Source of the DNA: Defluviitaleaceae bacterium
GTDB lineage: Bacteria; Bacillota; Clostridia; Lachnospirales; WRAX01
NCBI GenBank assembly: GCA_009785595.1
Contig: WQVZ01000016.1
Coordinates: forward strand, 1-32,759
Direction of reading: 5' to 3'
DNA length: 32,759 nt
Shown here piece by piece: positions 5,681 through 12,649 of the stretch. The position numbers were made by a program, and so were the translations under genes. Under the pieces are notes generated by a model that made no database searches, was not told where the DNA came from, and saw only the letters and a program-made list of their open reading frames with translations. Every line of letters begins with the position of its first letter. Positions within the stretch are counted from its first letter, which is position 1.

Positions 5681-5766
5681 GTCAGTTTTTGACGGTTTGT
5701 TTCATATTGACAGGGGGGGGGGGCTTCTTTGTTATACTTTTGGTGCAGCTGTCGACGCTGACTAAA
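5681..5766 (+). promoter_or_regulatory. Poly-G spacer promoter box, copy 1
   Basis: Consensus -35 TTGACA (5707-5712), a run of eleven G (5713-5723), then -10 TATACT (5733-5738), giving a 20-base spacer, 3 longer than optimal. Upstream is GTCAGTTTTTGACGG (5681-5695); downstream in the transcribed leader is GTCGACGCTGACTAAA (5751-5766). By hand count about 74 of 86 positions are identical, without gaps, to the box at 8419-8504, including the G11 length. It drives the secreted protein at 5792. Confidence 0.8.
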
Positions 5767-5791
5767 AATGTAACAAAGGAGAATTACGTTT

Positions 5792-6706
5792 ATGAACAAA
5801 AAAATTAAAGGGATTTTTACCTTACTCATGGCGATGGTTGTTTCCATTACCACCATTTTGCCGGTTTCGGTTTCGGCGAGTGGCAGGCAGGAGTTGGATA
5901 TTAACATGGCTCACTCCCTTGAAGCTCTTTGGGCTATTGGGATTGAGTTAGAATTAAACCTTGACGGTGGTATGCCGCGGTTGCAAAAACTATCTCACAA
6001 TGAGCCGATAGCTATTTTATCAGAGGTTGATGTCGACATAATGCTGGATGCCTTGAAGGTGGCTTTTGAGCTGACGGATAGTACAGTATACATAGACTGG
6101 GATATTACCAGTGCGCTTAAAGAAGCTGGACTTAGAGACTATTTTAACGATGGCGTTAGATTATTGCTTCAAGAAGAGCGTGAGTATGCGCTCATCAATA
6201 TGGTAAAAAACAATACATTTTACGAGCTTGTTGATATGGGCGTGTTTGATAGGCCTGGAATTTTAGAAGAACTGGAATCATTAAACTTGCTAAATGAAAT
6301 TTTTGAAGCAGGCAAAGTGTCGAAATCTATAGGAGATATGGACACAAATCAAGACTGGTGGCGACATTTTTGTGTTATACCGAGTCGCACAATAGTAACA
6401 AGACAGAATTTATATTTGGGTAGTCTTATGACTACAGTTGGTGATGTTATTGATTTCAACCTAAGCTTCATTGCGTCGTTTGCAGGTGGCCACTTAGAAG
6501 TAGGCACCTGGTCTATATGGCAGGACATTTTTACAAATGGTTTGGCTATAACGACCTTTGGTGGCCATCAGACCAGACAAGGCACTTTTCTTCCGCGGGG
6601 AACCCCAGAGCAAGTAGGTGCGCTGAGGGCATCATCAGGGAACACGATAGATATAATAACAGGTTATTTCACTATATGGGTACCAAGGCCAAGGCCGCCA
6701 TTGTAA
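5792..6706 (+). CDS. Secreted protein of unknown function
   Basis: I do not recognise this family. The 304 residues start with a clear Sec signal peptide (basic MNKKIKG, hydrophobic FTLLMAMVVSITTILPVS, likely cleavage after SVSAS near residue 30). The mature part has an acidic, leucine-rich helical half (residues about 35-175) followed by a Trp-containing, probably beta-rich half (QDWWRHFCVIPSRTIVTRQ to IWVPRPRPPL) ending in a proline/arginine tail. No catalytic motif stands out. AAAGGAG lies 9 bases before the ATG. It is the first gene after the poly-G promoter and is followed, 15 bases on, by a lipoprotein gene, so the two probably form one operon. The more A/T-rich codon use compared with the ribosomal genes fits an accessory gene. 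Confidence 0.8.
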   Translation: MNKKIKGIFTLLMAMVVSITTILPVSVSASGRQELDINMAHSLEALWAIGIELELNLDGGMPRLQKLSHNEPIAILSEVDVDIMLDALKVAFELTDSTVYIDWDITSALKEAGLRDYFNDGVRLLLQEEREYALINMVKNNTFYELVDMGVFDRPGILEELESLNLLNEIFEAGKVSKSIGDMDTNQDWWRHFCVIPSRTIVTRQNLYLGSLMTTVGDVIDFNLSFIASFAGGHLEVGTWSIWQDIFTNGLAITTFGGHQTRQGTFLPRGTPEQVGALRASSGNTIDIITGYFTIWVPRPRPPL

Positions 6707-6721
6707 AAGGAAGTGAGGGAC

Positions 6722-7171
6722 ATGAGAAGATTTAAAAGAGCGACAATGTTAATATTGGCTACTTCTTTACTCTTGGCTGCTTGTGATGGTATTTCAAAAG
6801 CACATGAATATGTAGTATATATACTGCATAATGAGCAGTACAATATTATCGTAAATGGCATGAGGCTTGATGACGTCACTTCGGAGAGCTATCCGACACA
6901 TGTGCCGCTTATTGTGGTTGCAAGAGCCTTTGGGGCGGAAGTTTTGTGGGATAGCGATACCGGGGAAGTAGTGTTATACGGCTTAAATGGAAAAATCATT
7001 GCTACAGAAGGCTCTGAAAGTTTTTTATTGGATCAAGAAACTATCATAATTCCTGGCTTGTCGGCAGTGGTAATTGATGGTCGACTCCATGTCCCATTTC
7101 AATTCTTTAGCGATGTGCTTGGTGTAAATAATGCCTACTTCAAAGACGGCCAAATTTTCATCTATAATTAG
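6722..7171 (+). CDS. Lipoprotein with copper amine oxidase N-terminal-like domain
   Basis: A 149-residue exported protein. The N-terminus has a basic stretch, a hydrophobic core and a lipobox LLLAAC with the lipid-modified cysteine at residue 21. The rest resembles the copper amine oxidase N-terminal-like domain frequent on Clostridia surface proteins: IIVNGMRL, VPLIVVARAFGAEVLWDSDTG, then DGRLHVPFQFFSDVLG. This domain has no oxidase activity itself and is thought to be a wall or substrate-binding module. I prefer the ATG at 6722 over the in-frame GTG at 6713, because AAAGGA is about 10 bases upstream of the ATG and only 1 base from the GTG. It probably shares the poly-G promoter with the gene upstream. 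Confidence 0.75.
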   Translation: MRRFKRATMLILATSLLLAACDGISKAHEYVVYILHNEQYNIIVNGMRLDDVTSESYPTHVPLIVVARAFGAEVLWDSDTGEVVLYGLNGKIIATEGSESFLLDQETIIIPGLSAVVIDGRLHVPFQFFSDVLGVNNAYFKDGQIFIYN

Positions 7172-7194
7172 CGCTATGGCGCAAGGATTAAGTA

Positions 7195-7245
7195 ATCAAG
7201 ACCATGGTTTGGTTGCCAGATATAATGGGCGGCCATGGTCTTGAT
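7195..7245. terminator. Perfect 13-bp inverted repeat between convergent genes
   Basis: ATCAAGACCATGG (7195-7207) and its exact complement (7233-7245) flank a 25-base loop. It sits between the lipoprotein gene (plus) and the Dabb gene (minus), where a bidirectional terminator is expected, but neither side has a proper T-run, so termination is an inference. Confidence 0.5.
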
Positions 7246-7250
7246 ACTAA

Positions 7251-7541
7251 TTATTCATAGTAATCAACACAAATTCTGTCGGTGGCCACTGTGCCTATAA
7301 ATTCGGCGGCGCGGACGTGCTCCGGGTGGGGTTTGTATGCGGCCAGGGCTTCTTCGTTGGCAAACAGGCTGTTCAGTACAATGGCCCGGTTGCTGGTGTC
7401 CAGCAGGTTTGTGTGCACCTTTATCTCCAGTAGGCCGTCAATTTTGCCGGCCAGGCCCTCTAGCAGGGCTTTTATTTTTGCGCCGTCCTCCTTGGGGTTG
7501 GCGTTTTCTTTGAAATTCCACGCCACTATATGTCTTATCAT
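7251..7541 (-). CDS. Dabb (stress-responsive A/B barrel) domain protein
   Basis: A 96-residue protein that is a single dimeric alpha+beta barrel domain. Typical Dabb features are MIRHIVAWNFKENA at the start, a middle helix IKALLEGLAGKI, LEIKVHTNL, and the PHPEHVRAAEFIGTVATDRICVDY end. Family members are small cytosolic dimers with varied or unknown roles. It lies 1 base downstream of the methyltransferase stop codon on the minus strand, and an AGGAGG ribosome binding site sits within the end of that gene, so the two are co-transcribed. Substrate unknown. Confidence 0.88.
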   Translation of the reverse strand: MIRHIVAWNFKENANPKEDGAKIKALLEGLAGKIDGLLEIKVHTNLLDTSNRAIVLNSLFANEEALAAYKPHPEHVRAAEFIGTVATDRICVDYYE

Positions 7542-7542
7542 G

Positions 7543-8331
7543 CTAATTTCCTCCTTGTTTGGTGGCGCGGGTGGCCAAAAATGTGGGGTAATATTCGCTG
7601 ATGGGGCCTTTGTCTCTGTCCTCGAAAAGATGGGTGAGGGTGAGGCCTGCCTGCAATTGCCCGCCTATTTGCTCCTCCAGGGTGTGGGAAAATTCTATGG
7701 CCCAGTTGTTGTCGATGCTTTTTTGCATCAAGGCCGGATTTTTAAGGGGATTGTATGGCAGCTTGTTGGCCAATTTTAGGTCATTGTGGCCGTTTTCGTC
7801 CTCGTTGAAAAGATAATTAACGCCATTGCACATACCGGCCATCAGTATGCCACCGGGTTTTAACACTCGGTAGCATTCGCGCCATATGGGATACACATCC
7901 TCCACAAAACAATTGGACACGGGGTGGAAGATGATGTGGAAGGAGTTGTCGGCAAAGGGCAGGGGCAAGGTCATATCCGCCCGCACTGTGTTTATTTCGT
8001 AGCCCTCCCTGGTGGCGACTGCGGTTTCGGTTTCCAGCTGGGCGGCGGAATAGTCAAGCACGGTGCAATCTGCCCCCAAAGCAGCGAAAACGGGCATTTG
8101 CTGGCCGCCGCCGGATGCCAGGCCAAGCAGGGCCGCTCCGTCAAGCCGGCCGTTTTTTAGGTATGGGGCAAACCACTGTTTTGGCACGGGCTTTAGGGGT
8201 GTAAGCACCACGTCCCAGCACCCGTCTTTGGCTTTGGCGAAGTCTTCGGCGGTGATGGCCGTGCCCCATTCCCAGCCGCTTTTTACCCAATTGTCTACGG
8301 CGGCGGCGTTTATATCGGTATATTTTTTCAT
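7543..8331 (-). CDS. Class I SAM-dependent methyltransferase
   Basis: A 262-residue cytosolic methyltransferase with the Rossmann signature: motif I LGLASGGGQQ (residues 69-78), the acidic ribose-binding residue in CTVLDYS (D93), RADMTLPLPFADNSFHIIF (motif II/III area, about 118-135) and YRVLKPGGILMAG (motif post-II). The conserved N-terminal DNWVKSGWEWG resembles a family common in Clostridia whose substrate is not known. Start chosen at the ATG at 8331 because AGGAGGT lies 8 bases upstream; a longer frame to 8415 runs through the likely promoter. A downstream Dabb gene is in the same operon. Confidence 0.85.
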   Translation of the reverse strand: MKKYTDINAAAVDNWVKSGWEWGTAITAEDFAKAKDGCWDVVLTPLKPVPKQWFAPYLKNGRLDGAALLGLASGGGQQMPVFAALGADCTVLDYSAAQLETETAVATREGYEINTVRADMTLPLPFADNSFHIIFHPVSNCFVEDVYPIWRECYRVLKPGGILMAGMCNGVNYLFNEDENGHNDLKLANKLPYNPLKNPALMQKSIDNNWAIEFSHTLEEQIGGQLQAGLTLTHLFEDRDKGPISEYYPTFLATRATKQGGN

Positions 8332-8418
8332 TCCATGTACCTCCTTGTTTGTGGTATAATCATATAATATAGCATGGTGTCCGGAATTACAAGTGTTGTT
8401 GCGTAAATGAAACATTTT

Positions 8419-8504
8419 GTCGGTTTTTGACGGATACTTACATATTGACAGGGGGGGGGGGTATATTTGTTATACTTTTAGTACAGTAGTCGACGCTGAC
8501 TAAA
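8419..8504 (+). promoter_or_regulatory. Poly-G spacer promoter box, copy 2
   Basis: Same architecture as the box at 5681: GTCGGTTTTTGACGG (8419-8433), TTGACA (8445-8450), eleven G (8451-8461), TATACT (8471-8476) with the same 20-base spacer, and GTCGACGCTGACTAAA (8489-8504). The spacing of every element is identical to copy 1. It drives the secreted protein at 8527 and is divergent from the methyltransferase operon. Confidence 0.8.
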
Positions 8505-8526: not shown

Positions 8527-9381
8527 ATGAAAAAAATAAAGAGAATTTCTGCACTTGCATTTGTACTAATTTTAATCTTTTCTGTCATTCCCACGCATAC
8601 GGTAGATGGGAGGGGCGGCGAATTAATTTTTGAACGAGTAGTTGTCGATGAAGAAATAGTTTATGTAGCGGAAGGCATACCTGTTTTATTTACTGTTTAT
8701 AGCTATAACGGTATGCTTGTTGAAACAGCTACACTCATGGAAGAAACATCGGACGGTTATTCGGCGATATCATCGGATACACGTGCTGCACGTTCGCAAT
8801 CTTTGCTGGAAATTGAAGATCTTGCTTACATAGTGGCGGCGGTGTCTGATGAAAGATATATCGCAAATAGTAGCTCTGGATGGATGCAGGAGAGTTCAAG
8901 CGGCAATCACGAGGCTAGCGGTTTCATGCACCGAACGAACAGAAGTCCGACTAATGCATCGGTGATAGTGGAACATTCCTTTGCATACCATGCGGTAAGT
9001 AATGTATGGATGCTAGGACATCAAACTATGCTGACATTATCTGGTGGCACTGTTAGGGGTCATAATAGCGTTGCGGGCAATGCTGAAACGATAAGGCTAG
9101 AACAGAACATATCGCGAGATGGCATGGCCGTTAGTGTATCTTTTCCATGGGGCATAGCTTTTTCTGGAAATAGCACAACAGAGCATTGGAGCATTACGGA
9201 AAGAAATACTTTTATGGTTACTGCGCGCTGGCCTAGGAATTTTACGGGGTCTTGGCCGTTAGCTTTTTTCTGGAATAGAACCTTGGTAACAATCACATCT
9301 AGAGTAGATGTAAGCACTCGTACGGGGGGTGCGATAACTGTTGATGCAGCAGTAATCACTCATAATATAAACATATGGTAG
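8527..9381 (+). CDS. Secreted protein of unknown function
   Basis: Not recognised. The 284 residues start with a signal peptide (MKKIKR, then ISALAFVLILIFSVIPTHT; cleavage probably near residue 26-28). The mature part has an N-terminal beta-like segment (LIFERVVVDEEIVYVAEGIPVLFTVY), a Ser-rich middle (SSSGWMQESSSGNHEASGF), and a Trp-rich, probably all-beta C-terminal half rich in T/S/N (FPWGIAFSGNSTTEHWSITE onward). I see no sequence similarity by eye to the 304-aa protein at 5792, although both share the same promoter box, a signal peptide and a similar size. AAAGGAAG precedes the ATG. A terminator follows at 9449, so the gene is monocistronic. Confidence 0.78.
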   Translation: MKKIKRISALAFVLILIFSVIPTHTVDGRGGELIFERVVVDEEIVYVAEGIPVLFTVYSYNGMLVETATLMEETSDGYSAISSDTRAARSQSLLEIEDLAYIVAAVSDERYIANSSSGWMQESSSGNHEASGFMHRTNRSPTNASVIVEHSFAYHAVSNVWMLGHQTMLTLSGGTVRGHNSVAGNAETIRLEQNISRDGMAVSVSFPWGIAFSGNSTTEHWSITERNTFMVTARWPRNFTGSWPLAFFWNRTLVTITSRVDVSTRTGGAITVDAAVITHNINIW

Positions 9382-10587: not shown

Positions 10588-12606
10588 TTATTGCGCCATC
10601 GGCTGGGGGATTGTTGTGGCGGGCGTGGGGTAGGGTATGTGGTACGGCAACTCTCCCGTCATTTCCACGGACAGCACAGAACCATTGGGTATAAGCATCT
10701 GGTTTAGGGCTACTGCATAATAGCCCCCGATTTCGTTGTAGCGGCCTACGGCTATAATGCCTATTGGAGCATTGTCAAAGGTAACGAGGAAATTGCCGGG
10801 GGTTGGCTGGCCAAGATAGTGGGTGTAAATGTAAATGCGGGTAAAAGGGCCTGTGATGTTACGCAGAGTGAATGCCTCGGCCTGCACCCTGCTTAGTGGG
10901 TCGAAGATTAGGCTAAAGACCACCGCGTTTTGTGTGAAGTTATCTGTTGGGGTTTCGACAATCCGGTGCCATGCATCGCCAAAGATTTCGGTGGTAATTT
11001 CGGCATCAAGGGCGAAGTAGCGGCCGGTAGCGGGCGTTAAAGATACTGTGGCTATGTATATTTCACCAGGGGTAAAATGATTGCCTGTAAGCGGGCTGCC
11101 GTTGATGTTTGCCCAGGTTATGGTGCCGGAAAAACCATTGCCGGTTATATTTCTTTGCACGTTGGACGTAAGGTTTGGGGGAAAAAGTGCCGGTGGAAGC
11201 AGGTTTGGCGGCATGAGGTGTATGTTGATATCGTTGATTGGTGTGCGGTTGTCTGGGTTGGGGCCGGGCTGCTGGGGTATCTGCGGGAGGTTAGGCAAGC
11301 CTATAAACGGCGGGTGCGGGTCATCTTGGTCATCTTCGTCGTCGTCATCCTCAGAAAGCAAATCATACAGCAAATACTCCAGGGCATACATCATTTCATC
11401 CATGCGGGAGTTAAGGGCGTTCAGAAGCAACAACTGACCTATGTCCGCATTGGCCGGGCTGTAAAGTAGGCTGCGAGGGCAGATGATGCTGGCGAAGACG
11501 CCAAAGGGAGCGATAGTATGTTGTATATCTCCTGTGCCAAGCAGTATTATATTACCATCGGCGTAAAGGTTGGCTATGTTGCCGTCTATAAATATTATCT
11601 CGTTATTTAGTGTGCTTCTTACAGTATAAAAATCTCCGGCAAGCTCCACATGGGGGCCGGTGATAAAGATTTCGGGAGCAGAAGTGCTGTCTGTTAATAA
11701 AGAAATGTCTAGTTTGCTTTTATTGCTCATATGTGCAGCATCAATTTGTGTGTAGTTTATGAGAGAAACATTGCTTTGGCCGAGAAAGCGAAGAGATTGG
11801 GCGGCACTGTTGTTGATAACTATGTTCATGGAATGGCCGGATTGGGCAATGATGATGTTGCCGGTGGTGTTAATGCTGTCAAATAGTATCTGGCCGCTTT
11901 GGTTTGGCGCAATGATAATATCACCGCGGCCGTTGATGTTAAGGGCTACTATGCTGGATATATTGTCGGAATTGTTGATGACCATAGCTGCGTCCAGATA
12001 GATGTCTTCAAGGTTTATCAGGGTATCGTCGGCTATAAAGACTTGAACGAGAGAGTCCAGAAAAACAGCCAGTTGGCCAAATGTGAGAAAATCGTTGGGG
12101 AGCAGTTCGTAAGCGTGGCCGGATGGAAAGCCCATAATTATGCCATTTTGATACAAGGAGCTTATATAATATCTGGCATGGGGTGGAATTTGGCTGTTAT
12201 CTGTGAAACTTGTGTGGCCAAGACCGGGGCTGCGGCCCATGGCTTGGGCGATTATGGTGAAGGCCTCGAAGCGGCGGATATACATTTGGTAGGATATGTG
12301 GGTGTATCGCTCGTTGATGGTGTAGTTCAAAAGATTGTGCATTATCTGGGCGAATTGACCATAGGTTACAAAGCTATCGGCTTCGGAGTGACTTACCATT
12401 GGCAATACGCCATAATCTACCCAGCGGGCAATGGCAGTATCGGCGAAATGTGGATGGCCACTAAGCCGCCCAGAATTTTGGGTGTGAATAGAGTATTCTC
12501 CTCCGGAGAAAATGCCGGAATCCGTGGTGGCCAGGACACCAAAAGAACCCATGGCCAGCAATATGGCTGTGATAATCACGATTTTAAAGGTTTTTCTTTT
12601 GCGCAT
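10588..12606 (-). CDS. Large surface protein with SLH domains
   Basis: A 672-residue secreted protein. Signal peptide MRKRKTFKIVIITAILLAMG with likely cleavage near LATTDSG. Residues about 50-190 contain S-layer homology motifs (HFADTAIARWVDYGVLPM, then FVTYGQFAQIMHNLL; SFTDNSQIPPHARYYISSLYQNGIIMGFPSG, then LTFGQLAVFLDSLV), which usually anchor proteins to pyruvylated wall polymers. The middle (about 205-375) is rich in N/I/S with repeating short beta strands, suggestive of a beta-helix or stalk. A very acidic patch (EDDDDEDDQDDPHPP) and a Pro/Asn linker precede a C-terminal beta-rich domain. The start at 12606 has GGAGG 8 bases upstream; the ATG at 12621 lies before the ribosome binding site. 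Function is inferred as surface attachment only. Confidence 0.8.
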   Translation of the reverse strand: MRKRKTFKIVIITAILLAMGSFGVLATTDSGIFSGGEYSIHTQNSGRLSGHPHFADTAIARWVDYGVLPMVSHSEADSFVTYGQFAQIMHNLLNYTINERYTHISYQMYIRRFEAFTIIAQAMGRSPGLGHTSFTDNSQIPPHARYYISSLYQNGIIMGFPSGHAYELLPNDFLTFGQLAVFLDSLVQVFIADDTLINLEDIYLDAAMVINNSDNISSIVALNINGRGDIIIAPNQSGQILFDSINTTGNIIIAQSGHSMNIVINNSAAQSLRFLGQSNVSLINYTQIDAAHMSNKSKLDISLLTDSTSAPEIFITGPHVELAGDFYTVRSTLNNEIIFIDGNIANLYADGNIILLGTGDIQHTIAPFGVFASIICPRSLLYSPANADIGQLLLLNALNSRMDEMMYALEYLLYDLLSEDDDDEDDQDDPHPPFIGLPNLPQIPQQPGPNPDNRTPINDINIHLMPPNLLPPALFPPNLTSNVQRNITGNGFSGTITWANINGSPLTGNHFTPGEIYIATVSLTPATGRYFALDAEITTEIFGDAWHRIVETPTDNFTQNAVVFSLIFDPLSRVQAEAFTLRNITGPFTRIYIYTHYLGQPTPGNFLVTFDNAPIGIIAVGRYNEIGGYYAVALNQMLIPNGSVLSVEMTGELPYHIPYPTPATTIPQPMAQ

Positions 12607-12649
12607 TGTAAATGCCTCCAAACATTATGAGTATGATATGGTGGGGATA

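Follow-up and report, generated by a model that had tools for sequence, protein, structure and literature searches.

In this work, two 86-bp boxes, each placed before a gene for a putative secreted protein, were observed in a 32,759-nucleotide stretch of Defluviitaleaceae DNA (the window). We hypothesize, with a probability of roughly 0.77, that both are sigma-A promoters with a G11 spacer tract that mediates slipped-strand phase variation of the secreted-protein genes, a reading drawn from the sequence and from analogy with known systems. The G11 run between -35 and -10 would slip during replication, so that single cells would gain or lose G residues, and the changed spacer length would make transcription strong (about 16–18 bp, G7–G9), weak or off. 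The features of the two loci are as follows.

5681..5766, plus strand: promoter box 1, 86 bp, after the terminator of rplQ and before the secreted-protein gene at 5792; 74/86 identity with box 2, sharp edges.
5681..5695, plus strand: conserved upstream element GTCAGTTTTTGACGG, 14/15 identical in box 2; possible regulator site.
5707..5712, plus strand: -35 TTGACA of box 1, exact consensus.
5713..5723, plus strand: G11 tract of box 1, adjoining the -35; proposed slippage element; layout also present in relatives.
5733..5738, plus strand: -10 TATACT of box 1, preceded by extended -10 TGT; spacer 20 bp.
5751..5766, plus strand: conserved transcribed leader GTCGACGCTGACTAAA of box 1, 16/16 identical in box 2.
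5792..6706, plus strand: orphan secreted protein of 304 aa with a signal peptide by eye and without a Pfam match.
6722..7171, plus strand: likely lipoprotein with copper amine oxidase N-terminal domain (PF07833, 4.9e-11).
8419..8504, plus strand: promoter box 2, 86 bp, from pairwise alignment and own-genome search.
8445..8450, plus strand: -35 TTGACA of box 2, from sequence.
8451..8461, plus strand: G11 tract of box 2, from sequence.
8471..8476, plus strand: -10 TATACT of box 2, preceded by extended -10 TGT; spacer 20 bp.
8489..8504, plus strand: conserved leader GTCGACGCTGACTAAA of box 2, from pairwise alignment.
8527..9381, plus strand: orphan secreted protein of 284 aa with a signal peptide by eye and without a Pfam match, sequence unrelated to the 5792 protein.

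The initial annotation had aligned the boxes without gaps at about 74 of 86 positions, and the ungapped comparison of 5681–5766 with 8419–8504 gave 74/86, or 63/75 without the G run. The identity per 10 bases was 6–10 within the box vs 2–6 outside it, and it ends within about 10 bases of each edge. The layout was likewise as first described: in both boxes the sequence reads TTGACA-G11-N9-TATACT, so that a homopolymer lies between a recognisable -35 and -10 and the spacer is 11 + 9 = 20 bp. An extended -10 TG (TGT-TATACT), absent from the earlier description, was found in both. A generic promoter scan overlooked the two boxes because it allowed only 16–18 bp spacers, which fits a weak assembled state. 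The box tracts are the only runs of nine or more G in the window.

The proteins encoded at 5792 and 8527, originally described as secreted and dissimilar, bear signal peptides by eye and show no meaningful resemblance (best BLASTP match 23 residues long, E 0.015). No convincing relative of the 5792 protein was found in 15 genomes of the family, and structure prediction for both orphans gave unusable models (mean pLDDT 33 and 35). The gene at 6722..7171 starts 15 bp past the end of 5792 and is probably in an operon with it. A surface protein with S-layer homology (SLH, E 2.7e-5) is also encoded near both boxes, at window positions 10588–12621 on the minus strand. Furthermore, the upstream element (5681–5695, GTCRGTTTTTGACGG) and the leader (5751–5766, GTCGACGCTGAC) each contain GTC-N6/7-GAC, on either side of the promoter, and could be an operator pair. 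The leader had no Rfam match, and folding gave no notable structure. The conserved flanks may place both boxes under one common regulator, which is our guess from the sequence.

Homopolymer-slippage phase variation is known mainly from Gram-negative pathogens, Treponema pallidum and Cutibacterium acnes. The porA promoter of Neisseria meningitidis has a poly-G between -10 and -35 and works best at about 17 bp, and it resembles the window in carrying the poly-G in the spacer of a surface-protein promoter (PMC7864442). It differs from the window in being a single Gram-negative locus with no twin box sharing a common leader; moreover, slippage and expression were demonstrated for porA, whereas for the window they are predicted from the sequence. 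In tp0126 of T. pallidum the poly-G is also located between -35 and -10, transcription was best at a spacing of 17, and length variation was measured by fragment analysis (PMC7864442), although the product is a spirochaete outer-membrane protein. PPA1880 of C. acnes is Gram-positive like the window and has a poly-G spacer, in which G11, G13 and G15 give spacers of 18, 20 and 23 bp, with secretion only in the 18-bp strain; its authors also allow a coding-frame explanation (PMC3224659). Unlike the window it is actinobacterial and concerns one secreted PT-repeat protein, and PPA1943 is a further C. acnes case (PMC4746626). Random switching in Clostridia, as proposed for the window, occurs in Clostridioides difficile, but by site-specific inversion of DNA and not by slippage (PMC9286219). 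The initial annotation knew of no such description in Clostridia. This holds for open-access full text, in which neither poly-G spacer promoters in Clostridia nor their multi-copy use in Clostridia or Bacilli was found described, but C. acnes provides a Gram-positive precedent (PMC3224659).

By analogy with tp0126, porA and PPA1880, both window promoters are predicted to be weak as assembled, with 20 bp. A tract of G8 corresponds to a 17-bp spacer in these boxes, and gain or loss of a few bases takes the spacer through 16–18 bp; loss of two to four G would be expected to turn the promoters on. Owing to the extended -10, some basal activity may persist; the extended -10 could also reduce the importance of spacing, which would speak against a spacing switch. 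The boxes would be duplicates of one promoter cassette, and their independent slipping would lead to a combinatorial display. We infer slippage in the source organism, its effect on transcription and control by a regulator from the sequence and by analogy.

The 1.69-Mb genome contains six tracts of nine or more G in all, three inside contigs and three near contig ends. A -35 and a -10 flank all three contig-internal tracts, namely those of the two window boxes and of a third poly-G spacer promoter (G000:C47:11346-11366, L038; TTGACA-aaaaca-G9-t-TACACT, 16 bp), whose downstream ORF carries an HSDR_N domain (type I restriction). Phase variation classically affects restriction genes. In addition, the first 100 bases of contig C38 (L036) hold a poly-C17 followed by TATAAT on the coding strand, with a tract length that is unreliable near the contig end, and the product of the gene behind it is secreted and has a copper amine oxidase N domain. 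This arrangement resembles the opc promoter of N. meningitidis, where a poly-C across the -35 gives homopolymer-length control of a surface protein; the opc tract covers the -35, whereas the window tract forms the spacer.

TTGACA-G8 was confined to four of the order's 392 genomes, and three of the four belong to the same family as the window; it was found at 8 places vs 0 for the reversed pattern. One family member of another genus (G007) has a single TTGACA-G11-N9-TATACT with a 20-bp spacer like the window. Another (G012) has four such tracts of G17–G21, three of them near contig ends, where lengths are unreliable; one follows rplQ and a terminator, the position of box 1, and its contig ends within the tract. 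In the remaining family genomes that were read, no promoter with eight or more G was found after rplQ. Three boxes of the family are complete, two in the window and one in G007, and all have G11 and 20 bp, so this uniformity could reflect a fixed length. The tract would then be a structural or regulator-bound element, selected for constant length, in which an over-long 20-bp spacer needs either an activator that binds the flanks or MerR-like distortion of the spacer. The flanks and leader are conserved beyond the needs of a slippage spacer, and the tract often directly adjoins the -35, as such an element might. Operators of the MerR type are dyads centred in the long spacers (19–20 bp) of their promoters; the G run is no dyad, and the window spacer consists of G11 and nine non-palindromic bases.

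A fixed length is also at odds with the boxes of other genomes, in which copies with the same flanks differ in tract length (G393, G443, G394 and G400) and spacers range from 12 to 22 bp. G393 has six complete boxes with G10, G11, G11, G12, G10 and G11 and no flank indel beside the tract; three identical boxes have G10, G11 and G10, and both downstream genes tested encode BspA-type leucine-rich-repeat surface proteins. Four related boxes of G443 (YAG-TACAAT) have G8, G12, G14 and G14 with spacers of 11, 15, 17 and 17, and same-flank boxes of G394 differ too. In G400 (loci L332-L334) the boxes read TTGACAGCTA-G8, -G11 and -G11, and the two with a readable gene precede prepilin-like proteins (MKKGFTLIELLAVIVILAIIALIATPIIL), possibly phase-variable pilins. 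In G392, on the other hand, as a fixed element would have it, the tract is G8 in 13 of 15 boxes and the variation falls in the other part of the spacer; hypervariability is therefore not a constant property of the tract. Taken together, we regard a fixed element as unlikely. The unequal G number of same-flank boxes is as predicted by independent slippage of copied cassettes. The variable G number anticipated by the initial annotation was thus found between boxes with the same flanks, although only in other genomes and between paralogues of those species, not between alleles of one locus.

In 84,980 species genomes, 92 stretches with TTGACA-G8+-N-TATAMT were found, mostly in gut Clostridia and Bacilli; the reversed-pattern controls given here come from smaller genome sets and not from this collection. 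The scan pattern allowed spacers of about 10–32 bp, but those found cluster at 15–20 bp and peak at 16–17, as in real promoters. In 16 match-bearing genomes TTGACA-G7 occurred at 57 places vs 0 reversed, with a maximum of 15 in one 1.1-Mb genome; these genomes were chosen for having a match, which accounts for only part of the 57. A set of 147 genomes of one family gave 18 matches vs 0 reversed, and some genomes hold 10–15 boxes. The rabbit-gut Bacilli genome G392 (1.1 Mb; loci L189-L197) has fifteen TTGACA-G7-9 promoters, most with a DnaA-box-like TTTTTCCACA closely upstream. Eight G394 contigs (C7, C18, C23, C41, C49, C90, C110 and C191) have one box, TTGACAAAAGYCCT-G8-12, at or close to their start or end. 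It appears that short-read assemblies break at poly-G promoters, and MAGs would therefore under-count them. Two viral contigs (L157 and L158, IMG/VR) carry the same poly-G9 promoter with a 16-bp spacer before a small secreted protein; a search of phage contigs for alleles with other G counts yielded just these two, with no difference in length. Phages or prophages may thus also carry poly-G promoters; most viral TTGACA-G8 matches lack a -10 and were set aside as background.

Genes behind the Bacillota boxes were exported-looking in 25 of 35 cases vs 49 of 214 other genes of the same stretches (p=4e-8), and in 15 of 23 when one box per genome was taken (p=6e-5), by a simple hydrophobicity rule that counts membrane proteins too in both groups. 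Behind same-flank boxes with differing G, the gene types were BspA-type leucine-rich-repeat, secreted and prepilin-like. This enrichment, together with the signal peptides on both window proteins, points to surface or secreted targets.

These data also bear on a plain recent duplication of an ordinary promoter, in which the G run would be incidental and functionless. The recurrence expected by the initial annotation held for the layout, which recurs in related genomes, but not for the 86-bp box: used as a query against its own genome, the box found its twin, 2.7 kb away, as the only full match (E 8.7e-24, 86%), and by DNA query neither the genome nor the family yielded a third full copy, as a single duplication would leave it. 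Weak matches such as C36:13415 were rejected, with only the 17-base -10 region in common. However, both G11 runs are still pure although 12 of the 75 positions outside them now differ, the layout is found again, independently and between unrelated flanks, in many taxa, with a reversed control of zero, and the downstream genes are biased to exported proteins, which makes a functionless run quite improbable. That the G runs were inserted or lengthened by an artefact of assembly or of two-colour sequencing is very improbable: although the source is a MAG assembly, and half of the genome's six G tracts, like several in G012 and G394, are close to contig ends, some in G-rich stretches, the window tracts are in the interior of a 32.8-kb contig, between normal sequence to the left and right and with the same -35 before them, and similar tracts, in at least four such promoters, occur in the cultured isolate Anaerocaecibacter muris CLA-AA-M11 (>400x stated coverage).

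The recurrence of the layout and the differing G number between same-flank paralogues elsewhere lend good comparative support to phase variation through a poly-G spacer, as the initial annotation proposed. Many gut Clostridia and Bacilli probably switch such surface proteins on and off at random by gain or loss of G, judging from these sequences. Somewhat less securely, we favour the view that several uncultured lineages among them maintain genome-wide contingency sets, in which one or two poly-G cassettes are present in 10 to 15 copies, each in front of a surface protein of its own, often a paralogue of the others (BspA-LRR, lipoprotein, prepilin). Independent slipping would give each clone a random surface combination, the flanks would add common control, and the window would be a two-gene instance. 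If this is true, transcript and binding data from clonal cultures would mix on and off cells, and the cultured A. muris would make a direct test feasible. It would also mean that surface bet-hedging, directed against phages, the host's immunity or competitors, is practised by commensal gut Clostridia and Bacilli too.
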